From: Planctomycetales bacterium
Lineage (GTDB): Bacteria; Planctomycetota; Planctomycetia; Pirellulales; JAEUIK01
NCBI GenBank assembly: GCA_020426575.1
Contig: JAGQPT010000297.1
Location: 1 to 35,914, forward strand
DNA length: 35,914 bases
Direction: 5' to 3'
Shown here: positions 7,819-13,056 of the stretch, piece by piece
How the letters are laid out: each line of letters opens with the position of its first letter
Position numbering within the stretch: the first letter of the stretch is position 1
Notes under the pieces: model-generated
What the model saw: only the letters and a program-made list of their open reading frames with translations
What the model was told of the DNA's origin: nothing
Databases searched by the model: none
Position numbers and translations under genes: made by a program

Positions 7819-7864
7819 ACGGCAGCGAGCTCTTGGCACTCGCTAGCTCGTTGTGCCGTCTTTT
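7819..7864 (+). terminator. Intrinsic terminator after the desaturase gene
   Basis: ACGGCA (7819-7824) pairs with TGCCGT (7854-7859), with an inner CGAGCT/AGCTCG stem, and is followed by CTTTT. The structure lies where the two convergent genes meet and includes the last codons of the M56 gene. Confidence 0.6.
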
Positions 7865-10800
7865 GCGTTGGCCCGCACCTCAGGGGGTAAGGGCGAAATG
7901 CGTCCTTCGAGCACGAGTTCTTTCTCTTCGCCTTCGGCGATCGTGATGTCGCGAGTGGGCCGGCGGGTGAGTTCAAACGGGACGTGGCCCAAAAACTTCC
8001 AGAACCCCTTCCTATCGGGGCTGCGACCTGCCGCGTGGAAGACGGCCGCGACGCCTAGTTGATACTCCCCCGGCAAGACGCGGATGCGGAAGGTACCGTC
8101 GGCTTGAACGCGAGCGGATGCCGCTGATCCGCCAGGTTCTCTCGGCCGTCGACTGAGCTCGAGCGAGATGCGATTGTCGCTTGCGTCGAGGGCTGCTCCG
8201 GTATCCGAATCGATCAATGTGCCATAGACCTCACCACCGCGAACGAGCTGTACGCCGTCCGATTCGAGCGTTTCACCAACTGTTAGCTGAAGCCGATCAA
8301 CGCGGCTACCAGCGTAGTCGGCGGCAAAAAAAGAGGCGTCATGGGGGCCTCCGCGCAAGCCGCTCACGCGAAATTGGCCCGACTTGTCGGTAATCGTAAG
8401 TGCGGCGGGAATGTGGATCATTGCGCCGTCCGCGGCACGTGGCTCCGATTCCGGCGGACCCTTTTTGCCTGACGGGCTTGGCGAAACCGCGACGCGCACA
8501 CCTGCTGCGGGAAGTCCGCTGTCGGCGAACAGCACGCGGCCGGTCATGGACGCCCCTCGCTCCAGTTCGACTTGAACCTCCCGCGGGCGCTGTTCCAAGT
8601 ATGATCGCGTCTGCGATACAAACCCTTCCGCCGTGATGCGATAGGCCCACGGGTAGAGAGTGATTGCGTCGAGTTTCTTTGTGGGCGGCGCCGGATCGCC
8701 GGTCTCGCTGACGTCGTCAATTTGAAACTCGCCATCATCATCGGTATATGCACACGCGAAGTCTTCAATTCGCGGTAGAGTCAGCCCAAATCGCACCAGG
8801 GCTCCCGCAATGGGGTGACCGTCAACGTCAGTGACACGTCCGCGCAGCGGTTCTGACGGTAGCAAAACGAGTTGCATTTCTGGCGGTTCGTCGCTCGACA
8901 CTTCGCCGAATGCCGACGCCCGGCCGGAGGATTGCGCCGCCACTCCCAAGGGCAACTTGTCCAAGTCATTGAGCGGCAGATTTGGTGCGTTGGCGAAGCG
9001 GAAACGGCCATCCGCGGCCGATTGCGTTCGTGCGATGAGTTCATTTCCAACGGCGTAGTGTTCTGTGTTGACGAGAGTCACGGTGGCGCCGGGAACCGGA
9101 TTCCCATCGCCGTCGACGCATCGGCCGTCGATTGCAAAGGTCGCGTGCTTGGGCGGCGTGGCAGTCGCCCCATCGTTGGCATTAGGCTTGTCAGCACGAT
9201 CGCCGCCGTGCTGCGTTCCGCTATCTGTGTCCGGCCGCCAAGAGACGATGATCGTCGCCTTGTCCGTTTCGGCCGTCTGGTCGGCGGCAACGGTGGTCGT
9301 GCTGTAGGAGAGGTTGTATGTCTCGTCGCCGACGCGAACGTCGATGGACTTGTCGCGCACCAGTTCGATCTGCTCTTCTTCGCCGTCGGGTTTGGTGACG
9401 AGAACATCGAGCGCGTCGTCGTTGCCACGTGTCATCTTGATGGTAACGAGTTCTTTGCCGTGCGCGGGAAGCTTTTCGTCGTTGAGCACGACGGGAAACT
9501 GGCCGCCGAGCGTGACCTGGGCTATCAGCATGTAGTTCGGCTTTCCTTCAACCGGAGTCGACGGCGCGAGGGCCGTCCAACTCGTCCGGTCTTCGATGCC
9601 CGGCGTGGCAGTGAACGTGAGGCGGTGGGACTCGGCAGTGTTGGAATCCGTTCGTGCCGGATTGCCTTGAATCTGGAGTTGGGGCCGTTGTTTTTGCAGA
9701 TTTGCGATGCCGTCAGCTGTGATCTTGGTATCGTCATGTTTGAACAGTATGAGCTTCGGCATCTTGGCGATGGATGCGAGGCCAGCGTCTGTGATGTCCG
9801 CGCCTTCGATGCTTAGACTTGCTAGCGAGGGCAATTGAGTAAGGTGCGCAATTCCAGCATCTGTCACGTCTGACAGTCCGAAGACCAAGAACCCCAATTC
9901 GGGCCATTTGGCCACCTGCTCTAACGTCTCGTCATTGATGTTCGATCCGTACAGATGGGCGCCGGTGAGGTTCTCGCAATCCGCCAGCACGGAGAATCCG
10001 GCTGGTGAGATTGACGTGTGAAACAGACTGATAGTCCCAAGCTTTGGAAGGGATGCGACCGCGCGCAATACGTCGTCCCCGATGCCTTTTCCGTCCAGTG
10101 CGACCGAGGACACTTCTTCCAGGCCATCGAGTGCGAGGAGTCTACGGGCTTGTTCAGCGTAGATTGAGGTTTCTGACAAACCGATGAACCAAACGTTATT
10201 GTTGTCATTTAGTTGAACCCTCGCGCCAGCGGCAAGTAGTTGAGCAATCGTGCTGGGGTTACTTGCGTGAACACTTCGTATGGCGTTCCAGTCAACTATT
10301 TTGCTGTCGTTTGCACCCACCAAAATAGTGAAGGTGGCGTCGCCCATTGGGGCCGGCAACGTTTCCACACTTCCATCCGCTAGCGCGACGAGGACTCGTC
10401 GATCGAGTAAGCCGCTGAACCCGGCGGCAGGTCTTTCCTCAGGCATGTCAAAGTCCCTCGGCCGCGACCATTCGACCGCACTTTCGTTGTCGGCCTCAAA
10501 TAGCATCAACGTGTTCGACAGGCCATCGGTGATTTCGCGCATATTGCGTGTGCCAGACGGCGGAAAGAAGGCGTTTTGACCACGCAGGCCGAGGTAGTGC
10601 GTCTTGCCTTGGCCTGCTGTGCCTCTAGGCGACTCGAACGTGTCGGGGATCTCAGAAACCAACGCTCGGTTATGTGGACTGTCCCACGGCTCATCGAGGT
10701 GGAAGCGGTCGTATAACTGTTGATACCCATCGAGAAACGGCAGTATGTGCACGCGCCAGCTCAACAGCGGCCTACCTTGAGCATCGAGACTGGCAGCCGG

Positions 10801-12057
10801 AGGATAGTGCCCGTGCTCATCGTGGTAGTTGAGCATCGCGATCGCGATTCGCTCAAGGTGCACGCGTGAAACCCCGATTGAGTCTTCTGTCGTGTCCGAT
10901 TTTGAAGGATCATCACCTAATAACGCTACTTCATTACCCGTCAACAAGCCGCGTCCCGGCAGGAGCATCACTGCTCCAATCACCAACACCGCCCAACAAA
11001 ACCATGGTGTGCGGCGGCGCAGTCGCGTGCCTGGTGACATGATGGCTTCGAGGCGTTGGCCCGTGACGTCGACGGGGCGGATGCCGCTGGCCAGGTACAG
11101 CGGTTGCAGGTTCTTGGCGAGTCGAAGCACGTTGAGCACTCCTTGGGCGTACTGTTCGGCCGAGCAACCGATCGAGGCGAGGACCGCCTGATCGCAGCAC
11201 TTTTCACGTTGGCGGGAAAGCTGGCGGCTGGTGAGCCAGACGAGCGGGTGGAACCACCACAACACCGTCACGACGACTTGCAACAGGGCCGCCCACGTGT
11301 CGCCGCGCTTGAGGTGCACGAGTTCGTGGGCCAGGATCGGAATGAGCCCGTCCGTGTTGCCGGCTTCCACAAAGGACTTTTCGACAAAGGTGTCGGGCAG
11401 CACGACCGTCGGACGCAGCACGCCGAAGCAGAGTGGCCCATATGCAGGTTCGCCTTCAGCGCTGTGCGAAATCCACAACCGGGGCCGGCGTCGCAACCGC
11501 AACTGGTTGCCGAGTCGATCAGCGAGTTCGACGACATCGCCACTCGCCGCGTTGCAGCGGCGCCGGATCGCGCGGTACTGGCGGCACCAGCCCACGACGA
11601 TCACGATCACGCATCCGATTGCACCTACTGCCCACACTCCGAAGAGCAGCGTCGGCCACGACGGCAGTTCGAACGAAGGCGGCGCCGACGTTTTCTGTGG
11701 CGTCGGGGAGAGCGGTGGAGGGTCGCTAGGTGGGAGTGGTTCGCCGAGCGGCTGTGCGAAGTCGACGTACGACGCCTCGTAGCTGGTGGGATCCAGAGGT
11801 GTCACACTCACGGGAGTCGTCGCCACCCGGGCCGTCTGCAACCAACTGAAGACACTGGCGCGGCTGCTCCACAGCGGAGGTACCAGGCACTTCACGAGCA
11901 CAAGCATCAGCAGGGCATACGCCAGGTACGGTCGCTGCCGACAGAACATCCGCACGACGAGCAGCGCGAGCGCCGCTACCACGGTGACTTGCCAGAAATG
12001 CGTCCAGGCAACGCTTGCCAGCTTCGCGTCGGTGAGGGTCGCAAGTACGTCGCTCAT
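7843..12057 (-). CDS. BlaR1-like M56 metallopeptidase fused to DUF1559, leucine-rich repeats and carboxypeptidase-regulatory domains
   Basis: This 1404-residue multidomain membrane protein begins with an M56 (BlaR1/MecR1) module at about 1-345. Its transmembrane helices lie near 20-37, 44-62, 136-158, 256-275 and 353-370. The zinc motif is HELVH (244-248), with the downstream REKCCDQ (284-290) supplying the third ligand. After the last helix come a DUF1559-type domain without its pilin-like leader (about 395-590, with LNYHDEHGHYPP), about six leucine-rich repeats (645-795), an unassigned beta-rich region (810-945) and three or so carboxypeptidase-regulatory-like domains (about 975-1060, 1068-1165 and 1168-1270, possibly another to 1385). 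BlaR1 normally ends in a penicillin-binding sensor; none is seen here. The ATGA overlap with blaI shows coupling. Probable role: a membrane sensor that inactivates the BlaI repressor. Its ligand is unknown. Confidence 0.88.
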   Translation of the reverse strand: MSDVLATLTDAKLASVAWTHFWQVTVVAALALLVVRMFCRQRPYLAYALLMLVLVKCLVPPLWSSRASVFSWLQTARVATTPVSVTPLDPTSYEASYVDFAQPLGEPLPPSDPPPLSPTPQKTSAPPSFELPSWPTLLFGVWAVGAIGCVIVIVVGWCRQYRAIRRRCNAASGDVVELADRLGNQLRLRRRPRLWISHSAEGEPAYGPLCFGVLRPTVVLPDTFVEKSFVEAGNTDGLIPILAHELVHLKRGDTWAALLQVVVTVLWWFHPLVWLTSRQLSRQREKCCDQAVLASIGCSAEQYAQGVLNVLRLAKNLQPLYLASGIRPVDVTGQRLEAIMSPGTRLRRRTPWFCWAVLVIGAVMLLPGRGLLTGNEVALLGDDPSKSDTTEDSIGVSRVHLERIAIAMLNYHDEHGHYPPAASLDAQGRPLLSWRVHILPFLDGYQQLYDRFHLDEPWDSPHNRALVSEIPDTFESPRGTAGQGKTHYLGLRGQNAFFPPSGTRNMREITDGLSNTLMLFEADNESAVEWSRPRDFDMPEERPAAGFSGLLDRRVLVALADGSVETLPAPMGDATFTILVGANDSKIVDWNAIRSVHASNPSTIAQLLAAGARVQLNDNNNVWFIGLSETSIYAEQARRLLALDGLEEVSSVALDGKGIGDDVLRAVASLPKLGTISLFHTSISPAGFSVLADCENLTGAHLYGSNINDETLEQVAKWPELGFLVFGLSDVTDAGIAHLTQLPSLASLSIEGADITDAGLASIAKMPKLILFKHDDTKITADGIANLQKQRPQLQIQGNPARTDSNTAESHRLTFTATPGIEDRTSWTALAPSTPVEGKPNYMLIAQVTLGGQFPVVLNDEKLPAHGKELVTIKMTRGNDDALDVLVTKPDGEEEQIELVRDKSIDVRVGDETYNLSYSTTTVAADQTAETDKATIIVSWRPDTDSGTQHGGDRADKPNANDGATATPPKHATFAIDGRCVDGDGNPVPGATVTLVNTEHYAVGNELIARTQSAADGRFRFANAPNLPLNDLDKLPLGVAAQSSGRASAFGEVSSDEPPEMQLVLLPSEPLRGRVTDVDGHPIAGALVRFGLTLPRIEDFACAYTDDDGEFQIDDVSETGDPAPPTKKLDAITLYPWAYRITAEGFVSQTRSYLEQRPREVQVELERGASMTGRVLFADSGLPAAGVRVAVSPSPSGKKGPPESEPRAADGAMIHIPAALTITDKSGQFRVSGLRGGPHDASFFAADYAGSRVDRLQLTVGETLESDGVQLVRGGEVYGTLIDSDTGAALDASDNRISLELSRRPREPGGSAASARVQADGTFRIRVLPGEYQLGVAAVFHAAGRSPDRKGFWKFLGHVPFELTRRPTRDITIAEGEEKELVLEGRISPLPPEVRANAKDGTTS

Positions 12058-12443
12058 TTTTCTCCCCCTTTGAGTTCTTCGAGACGTCGTTGCAGGAGTT
12101 CAATGTCATCAGCCGAGAGCCGGTGGGCGTCGATCAGGTGTTGCACCAGCGGCAGCGCCTCGCCGTCAAACAAACGGTCCAAGAAGTCGTCGGTCAGTTC
12201 GCCGATCACCTTGCCGGGCTTGACGGCCGGCGCGTAGACGTTGCCCTGACCGCGTCGCGTGGCCGTGAGGTAGCCCTTCTCACGCAGCCGCCGCAGATAT
12301 GTCTGCACGGTCCAGAAGTCGAGGTCGCGGTCATCGGGCAACGCCTCGTGGACCTGGCGCACCGTCGCCTCACCGAGTTGCCAGACGATGCGAGCGACCT
12401 CTAGTTCGCTCTTGGCCAGCGGCGGCCGATCCTTCGCCATCAT
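12054..12443 (-). CDS. blaI: BlaI/MecI-family winged-helix repressor
   Basis: This 129-residue repressor has the BlaI hallmarks: LAKSELEVARIVWQLGEATVR (9-29), the recognition part DFWTVQTYLRRLREKGYL (42-59) and a C-terminal dimerisation helix bundle. I chose the ATG at 12443 because GGAGG lies seven bases upstream; a second ATG follows directly. In the known systems BlaI dimers bind TACA-N2-TGTA dyads and are cleaved when the partner M56 protease is activated. Two such dyads overlap the promoter of this gene, so it very probably represses itself and the M56 gene, whose start overlaps its stop (ATGA). Other targets in the genome are likely. Confidence 0.92.
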   Translation of the reverse strand: MMAKDRPPLAKSELEVARIVWQLGEATVRQVHEALPDDRDLDFWTVQTYLRRLREKGYLTATRRGQGNVYAPAVKPGKVIGELTDDFLDRLFDGEALPLVQHLIDAHRLSADDIELLQRRLEELKGGEK

Positions 12444-12484: not shown

Positions 12485-12500
12485 ACGTACAATTGAACGT
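12485..12500. promoter_or_regulatory. BlaI operator, proximal (imperfect dyad)
   Basis: ACGTACA-AT-TGAACGT has the same seven-base half-sites as the distal operator except one mismatch in the right half. It sits just downstream of the -10 element, over the expected transcription start. Confidence 0.7.
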
Positions 12501-12501
12501 T

Positions 12502-12529
12502 AATATACGTACAAATGTACGTTCGTCAA
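12502..12529 (-). promoter_or_regulatory. Promoter of the blaI-M56 operon
   Basis: On the minus strand TTGACG (12529-12524) and TATATT (12507-12502) are 16 bases apart. The spacer contains the distal BlaI dyad and the region after the -10 contains the proximal one, the arrangement expected of an autorepressed promoter. Confidence 0.7.
12507..12522. promoter_or_regulatory. BlaI operator, distal (perfect dyad)
   Basis: ACGTACA-AA-TGTACGT is a perfect seven-base inverted repeat with a two-base centre, containing the TACA-N2-TGTA core of BlaI/MecI boxes. It begins at the edge of the -10 element and fills the promoter spacer, 22 bases centre to centre from the proximal site (two helical turns). 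Confidence 0.78.
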
Positions 12530-12540
12530 GCGCGGCGCAT

Positions 12541-12581
12541 AAAAAACACTTGAGCCGCCCGAATTGGAGCGACTCAAGTGT
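12541..12581 (-). terminator. Intrinsic terminator of the PII gene
   Basis: Read on the minus strand, a nine-base perfect stem (ACACTTGAG / CTCAAGTGT, arms 12573-12581 and 12546-12554) is followed by six T residues. It separates the PII gene, which ends 47 bases upstream, from the blaI promoter. Confidence 0.8.
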
Positions 12582-12627
12582 CTGGAAGGAGGTGGCCCGT
12601 GGGGGCGAGGAACTGAGTATCTGGGCC

Positions 12628-13056
<429 letters not shown>

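Follow-up and report, generated by a model that had tools for sequence, protein, structure and literature searches.

A planctomycete BlaI/M56 pair with a composite, probably non-beta-lactam ectodomain

The window, the 35,914-nucleotide stretch of DNA analysed here, derives from a planctomycete (order of Pirellulales type) whose genome comprises 5.27 Mb in 610 contigs and is about 90% complete. On its reverse strand, a BlaI-type repressor gene is followed by a gene for an M56 membrane protease (Table 1). The original prediction of a 1404-residue M56 protein overlapping blaI by ATGA was borne out: the M56 gene is a single unbroken open reading frame of 1404 codons (12057..7843), whose ATG (12057-12055) shares bases with the blaI TGA (12056-12054), the blaI ATG being at 12443. 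The unit contains no third gene, as it is flanked by a terminator-like hairpin upstream and a convergent desaturase gene downstream. Because this hairpin, with a 17-bp stem and −30.6 kcal/mol in an RNA fold of 12531-12600, separates a P-II gene from blaI, we marked blaI and the M56 gene as their own transcription unit.

The P-II nitrogen regulator gene (12628-12969) lies directly upstream of blaI, and other M56 loci have no such neighbour. A link to the neighbouring PSCyt/DUF1501 genes was rejected, as these showed no enrichment (2 of 82 M56 loci versus 2 of 79 control loci); they also adjoin the nearest M56-LRR (leucine-rich repeat) relative, L064. Desaturase homologues were present in all six related genera, with no P-II, PSCyt or BlaI/M56 gene beside them in the stretches examined. 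At L290 (G005:C204:108500-117000), a desaturase homologue adjoins a DUF1559 gene whose product is 44% identical to the DUF1559 domain of the window.

Table 1 Features of the blaI-M56 locus, in the direction of transcription
Feature	Position	Strand	Evidence
Terminator-like hairpin and T run, between P-II gene and blaI	12531..12585 (approximate)	-	RNA fold
Sigma-70-like blaI promoter, TTGACG-16 nt-TATATT	12502..12529	-	Consensus scan
Operator 1, ACGTACA-N2-TGTACGT, in promoter spacer	12507..12522	.	Perfect palindrome
Operator 2, with one mismatch, immediately after the −10 element, 22 bp from operator 1	12485..12500	.	Operator search
blaI, BlaI-type repressor, 129 aa, without cysteine	12054..12443	-	Pfam Penicillinase_R, E 1.3e-28
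M56 membrane protease module, residues 1-372	10942..12057	-	Pfam, alignment, BlaR1 profile match, hydropathy
DUF1559 domain, residues about 384-598	10264..10908	-	Pfam, E 3.6e-21; AlphaFold
Leucine-rich repeats, residues about 636-800	9658..10152	-	LegL1 match; AlphaFold and Foldseek
No family assigned, probably beta-rich, residues about 805-970 (about 165)	9148..9645	-	Low-confidence strands
About four carboxypeptidase-regulatory-like domains, residues about 976-1390	7888..9132	-	Pfam

Repressor, protease and outer array

The blaI product aligns with MecI along its full length, and both the Penicillinase_R domain and the TACA-N2-TGTA operator of BlaI/MecI repressors are present. Its score of 76.4 bits with the CopY_TcrY model TIGR02698 exceeds that with any BlaI model and would suit a copper-type control like that of CopY/TcrY. 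However, this score falls below the model cut-off of 121.95, the CopY metal site requires a C-terminal Cys motif that a repressor devoid of cysteine cannot offer, and the repressor is paired with a protease; we therefore consider copper-type control extremely improbable.

The protein encoded next to BlaI belongs to the M56 (BlaR1-type) membrane peptidases, with a Peptidase_M56 domain at residues 25-318 (Pfam, E 2.5e-33) and the catalytic motifs H244-E-x-x-H248 and E285xxxD289. In BlaR1, residues H201, E, H205, D210, E242, D246, Y261 and R294 have been shown or argued to matter (PMC9834060). Their counterparts in the window protein, namely H244, E245, H248, D253, E285, D289, Y303 and R335, are invariant or nearly so in an alignment of 24 planctomycete M56s, and a profile built from these 24 domains retrieved BlaR1 (8exs/8exp) from the PDB (E 8.6e-10). 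Hydropathy peaks at 21-39, 45-63, 137-155 and 354-372, together with a weaker one at 257-275, agree with the four transmembrane helices that surround the protease of BlaR1/MecR1; with the orientation taken over from BlaR1, the protease would face the cytoplasm and the array would lie outside. Since the BlaR1 residues are kept, the BlaR1 profile matches and membrane helices are present, the protease core is expected to work.

At the BlaI/MecI scissile position (N101-F102), planctomycete BlaIs mostly carry His (58 of 81) followed by Leu (73 of 81), and the window BlaI has H-L aligned there. A hydrophobic residue at P1′ is in keeping with a thermolysin-like protease, and the M56 protease of the window may cut its BlaI at this site. 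Known BlaI proteins are reported to have a nearly invariant Phe at P1′ (PMC9834060), and the autocleavage residue Phe284 of BlaR1 is not conserved in the aligned planctomycete M56s, the alignment being too loose to place that site. Because the P1′ Phe is Leu and Phe284 is not conserved, the cleavage rules may differ here.

Beyond the last helix, the predicted succession of a DUF1559-type domain, leucine-rich repeats and several carboxypeptidase-regulatory-like domains was recovered. The DUF1559/SBP_bac_10 family matched residues 400-598 with 76.8 bits against a gathering score of 23.3, and in the AlphaFold model of residues 376-830 this domain, with pLDDT mostly above 90, opens with a long helix (384-415) and is followed by the repeats. 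Pfam returned no LRR family name for the window protein; residues 609-803 showed sequence similarity (E 3.1e-4) to LegL1 (4xa9), an LRR protein of Legionella, and the top Foldseek matches of the model were LRR structures, which places this stretch among the LRR proteins. No Pfam family matched residues 805-970, and four stretches from residue 976 matched CarboxypepD_reg (E 5.4e-25). Structure prediction, proposed for the entire C-terminal part, was thus informative for residues 376-830, in which Foldseek found repeats and no penicillin-binding fold, whereas the single-sequence AlphaFold model of 806-1404 was unusable (pLDDT 35), CarboxypepD_reg occupying 976 onward. Pfam likewise found no class D-like penicillin-binding domain in the window protein, which departs in this respect from BlaR1/MecR1 with their C-terminal sensor.

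We next weighed a true beta-lactam or cell-wall-damage sensor with a cryptic ligand domain. The BlaI/M56 pair is of the same kind, and peptidoglycan dipeptides act directly on BlaI/MecI in Bacillus licheniformis and S. aureus (PMC3305447). Nonetheless, no transpeptidase or beta-lactamase domain was recognised here or in 80 surveyed C-termini (none among all 14 families at Pfam 1e-12), the sole stretch without an assigned family spans about 165 residues, and no second exact operator core was found for a beta-lactamase. Furthermore, NCBIfam blaR1_generic scored 85.5 bits against a curated cut-off of 400 and covered only profile positions 104-308 of 585, which is the protease half. We regard a cryptic sensor as quite improbable and the non-beta-lactam reading of the pair as well supported. 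That the beta-lactam sensor was "replaced", as the original prediction put it, holds insofar as no penicillin-binding fold was found; the word is too narrow and misleading, because no sampled planctomycete M56 C-terminus is a recognised penicillin-binding domain, and non-penicillin-binding ectodomains are, as far as sequence can tell, the rule among the M56s sampled. A protein or polysaccharide as ligand is a guess, for which the LRR and carboxypeptidase-like domains are only suggestive, and we know of no ligand for DUF1559.

Operators and regulated genes

The blaI promoter has 10 of 12 consensus matches, where 0.2 such promoters were expected in shuffles. The predicted ACGTACA-N2-TGTACGT operator proved real, with the perfect copy accompanied by a one-mismatch copy (Table 1). 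Its exact core GTACANNTGTAC (GTACA-N2-TGTAC) has a single copy in the whole 5.27-Mb genome, at the blaI promoter. When up to one mismatch was allowed in the 16-bp operator, one further match appeared, at C430:8937, inside a coding frame resembling pyruvate:ferredoxin oxidoreductase; 13 further sites with two mismatches were near background. The genome-wide search thus failed to deliver the anticipated regulon. It revealed no output gene besides the blaI-M56 operon and no operator match that would place a beta-lactamase or PBP2a gene under control, in a genome about 90% complete and with the proviso that weaker operators would escape such a search.

Similar sites recur in relatives. Of the 80 planctomycete blaI genes adjoining an M56 gene, 32 have exact TACANNTGTA boxes upstream (0.27 expected from single-base shuffles); these boxes are often paired, and pairs 22-32 bp apart precede many other planctomycete blaI genes. 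The exact core was found 17 times across six other genomes, in 10 cases at the own promoters of BlaI/M56 pairs. The other seven, around which gene names were assigned by eye, comprised five within coding frames, one intergenic and one just upstream of an ImuA-like gene. Because paired operators lie at the pairs' own promoters and the exact core is unique here, autoregulation of blaI-M56 is well supported by sequence.

We favour, with somewhat better than even confidence, a BlaI/M56 proteolytic signalling pair that has a non-beta-lactam ectodomain and derepresses mainly its own operon. At rest, BlaI would bind the two operators over the blaI promoter and keep the operon low. As BlaR1 does, the M56 protein would reside in the inner membrane, its zinc protease on the cytoplasmic side and its remaining 1000 or so residues exposed outside. 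A change at the outer array, be it binding, stretching or a lost contact, would shift the last transmembrane helix, upon which the protease would cut BlaI and the operon would be derepressed. Since the main detectable target is the own operon, the signal would raise the amount of receptor. Of the original inference, the non-beta-lactam signalling system endures through the intact BlaR1-type protease and the lack of a penicillin-binding fold; no wider regulon was seen.

Alternatively, the array may itself be the product that matters, as an adhesin, scaffold or binding protein, with M56 and BlaI setting its amount by sensing whether it is folded, exported or engaged. Such a self-regulating surface protein would agree with an exact core unique to its own promoter, the same tendency in six other genomes and a unit devoid of a third gene, and the secretin, POTRA and HlyD modules of relatives (see below) resemble working parts more than small-molecule sensors. 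On the other hand, autoregulation is a property of canonical BlaR1 as well, any targets that have weak operators or fall in the 10% of the genome not recovered would escape view, and the array has no proven activity. We judge self-regulation unlikely, while giving it appreciable weight, and retain the signalling pair as the preferred reading.

Modular outer parts of planctomycete M56 proteins

The survey covered the family (7 genera), the class (398 genomes) and the order (197 genomes) and yielded more than 80 M56 proteins; it is not an unbiased census because these were picked by similarity to the M56 of the window. BlaI adjoined M56 directly upstream in 80 of 86 surveyed M56 open reading frames. 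The source genome itself holds eight M56 and eight BlaI genes, the M56 C-termini differing from one another. Among 80 C-termini, Pfam at 1e-4 recognised Secretin (17), CarboxypepD_reg (10), LRR (5), DUF1559 (4), POTRA (3), HEAT (3) and Poly_export (2). The outer part of BlaI/M56 proteins is modular and swapped among relatives.

Several architectures were observed besides that of the window. BlaI-linked M56 with a secretin-like region occurs in L110, L117, L127 (which also has SLBB) and 14 more of the 80 C-termini; the secretin matches are moderate, with one example lacking a PDB match, and such proteins would join an inner-membrane protease and an outer-membrane-type domain in one chain. In L122 (1568-5770), M56 is followed by five POTRA repeats matching BamA structures (E 2.5e-11), with no barrel domain named. 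L165 (1680-10055; 2791 residues) and L119 (2204-9262; 2352 residues) encode giant M56-LRR proteins, and in L119 carboxypeptidase-like domains separate the LRR blocks. In L191 (450-2867), a BlaI-linked M56 is fused to an HlyD/CusB-type membrane-fusion region.

The search for the same domain order beside blaI gave a divided answer: M56-DUF1559-LRR-CPD (carboxypeptidase-like domain) was seen nowhere else in the survey, but the parts and sub-combinations M56-DUF1559, M56-LRR, M56-CPD and M56-LRR-CPD-LRR occur. M56 with DUF1559 was found in the window, L065, L188/L197 and L189. In the M56 tree, these four lineages are separate and require four changes, a single clade being rejected (AU p 4.6e-8); exact placements are unsure because some DUF1559-bearing rows have long branches. 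By this tree, M56 acquired DUF1559 on no fewer than four occasions. The nearest M56-LRR relative in the window's own family, L064, has neither DUF1559 nor a carboxypeptidase-like tail. L197 (3095-8229; Bythopirellula sp. IP29b_bin.185) has two tandem M56 genes behind a single BlaI; their M56 parts are close, but their C-termini differ (DUF1559 versus none recognised).

These comparisons also bear on an assembly or annotation artefact joining unrelated genes. Third-position G+C is about 0.77 over the M56 part and drops to 0.56-0.68 across much of the C-terminal part, and the exact order is not seen in other genomes, as an artefact would have it. Yet the frame is unbroken, relatives contain the sub-combinations named above, and the change in composition is compatible with module gain, which would produce such a step. 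The original prediction had named absence of the fusion from close relatives as a sign of artefact; since other families, in assemblies made independently (L188/L197 and L189), also join M56 to DUF1559 at this junction, the window protein does not stand alone, and we consider an artefact very improbable.

In the literature searched, subscription papers aside, we found no paper joining BlaR1 or M56/BlaI with DUF1559 or describing planctomycete M56 receptors, and no experiment on any planctomycete M56 protein. The window pair belongs to a large planctomycete set with many different outer domains that is apparently undescribed. More tentatively, and with rather less than even confidence, we propose that planctomycetes use the BlaI/M56 switch as a general platform for sensing at the envelope or for homeostasis of surface proteins, on which outer modules (DUF1559, LRR, carboxypeptidase-like, secretin, POTRA, SLBB, HEAT, HlyD) are exchanged while control by each pair stays mainly with its own operon; the window protein would be among the most composite members. 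BlaR1 is familiar as a sensor in antibiotic resistance; should the switch operate with many unrelated outer modules, penicillin sensing would be one particular form of a general transmembrane proteolytic receptor. Module swapping would then allow a direct study of how events outside are relayed to the inner protease, which the BlaR1 structure paper (PMC9834060) states as an open question. The proposal would also give a first regulatory context to DUF1559, among the largest planctomycete families and without known function.

Comparison with known systems

The closest known systems are BlaI-BlaR1 and MecI-MecR1 of Staphylococcus and Bacillus licheniformis, with which the window pair shares the repressor fold, the TACA-N2-TGTA core, the gluzincin residues, the transmembrane layout and the gene pairing. 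In contrast to BlaR1/MecR1, the window protein bears a modular ectodomain of about 1000 residues in place of a penicillin-binding sensor, and unlike BlaI/MecI, its repressor has H-L instead of N-F at the scissile position and no beta-lactamase or PBP2a target was found. The M56::DUF1559 fusions (L188/L197 of Bythopirellula sp. IP29b_bin.185, L189 and L065) resemble the window protein in having M56 then DUF1559, directly after the last membrane helix in L188 and L189 and after an extra region in L065, but they sit on separate M56 branches and have no LRR or carboxypeptidase-like tail. Conversely, the M56::LRR and M56::LRR/CPD proteins (L064, L071, L119, L128 and L165) share M56 and LRR with the window, L119 also the carboxypeptidase-like domains, but have no DUF1559. 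Finally, planctomycete DUF1559 (PF07596) proteins, of which there are 74 in R. baltica (PMC2754498) and 68 in P. limnophila (PMC10632474), share with the window this domain and its fold, predicted with high confidence and including a long N-terminal helix, although most of them are not fused to M56.
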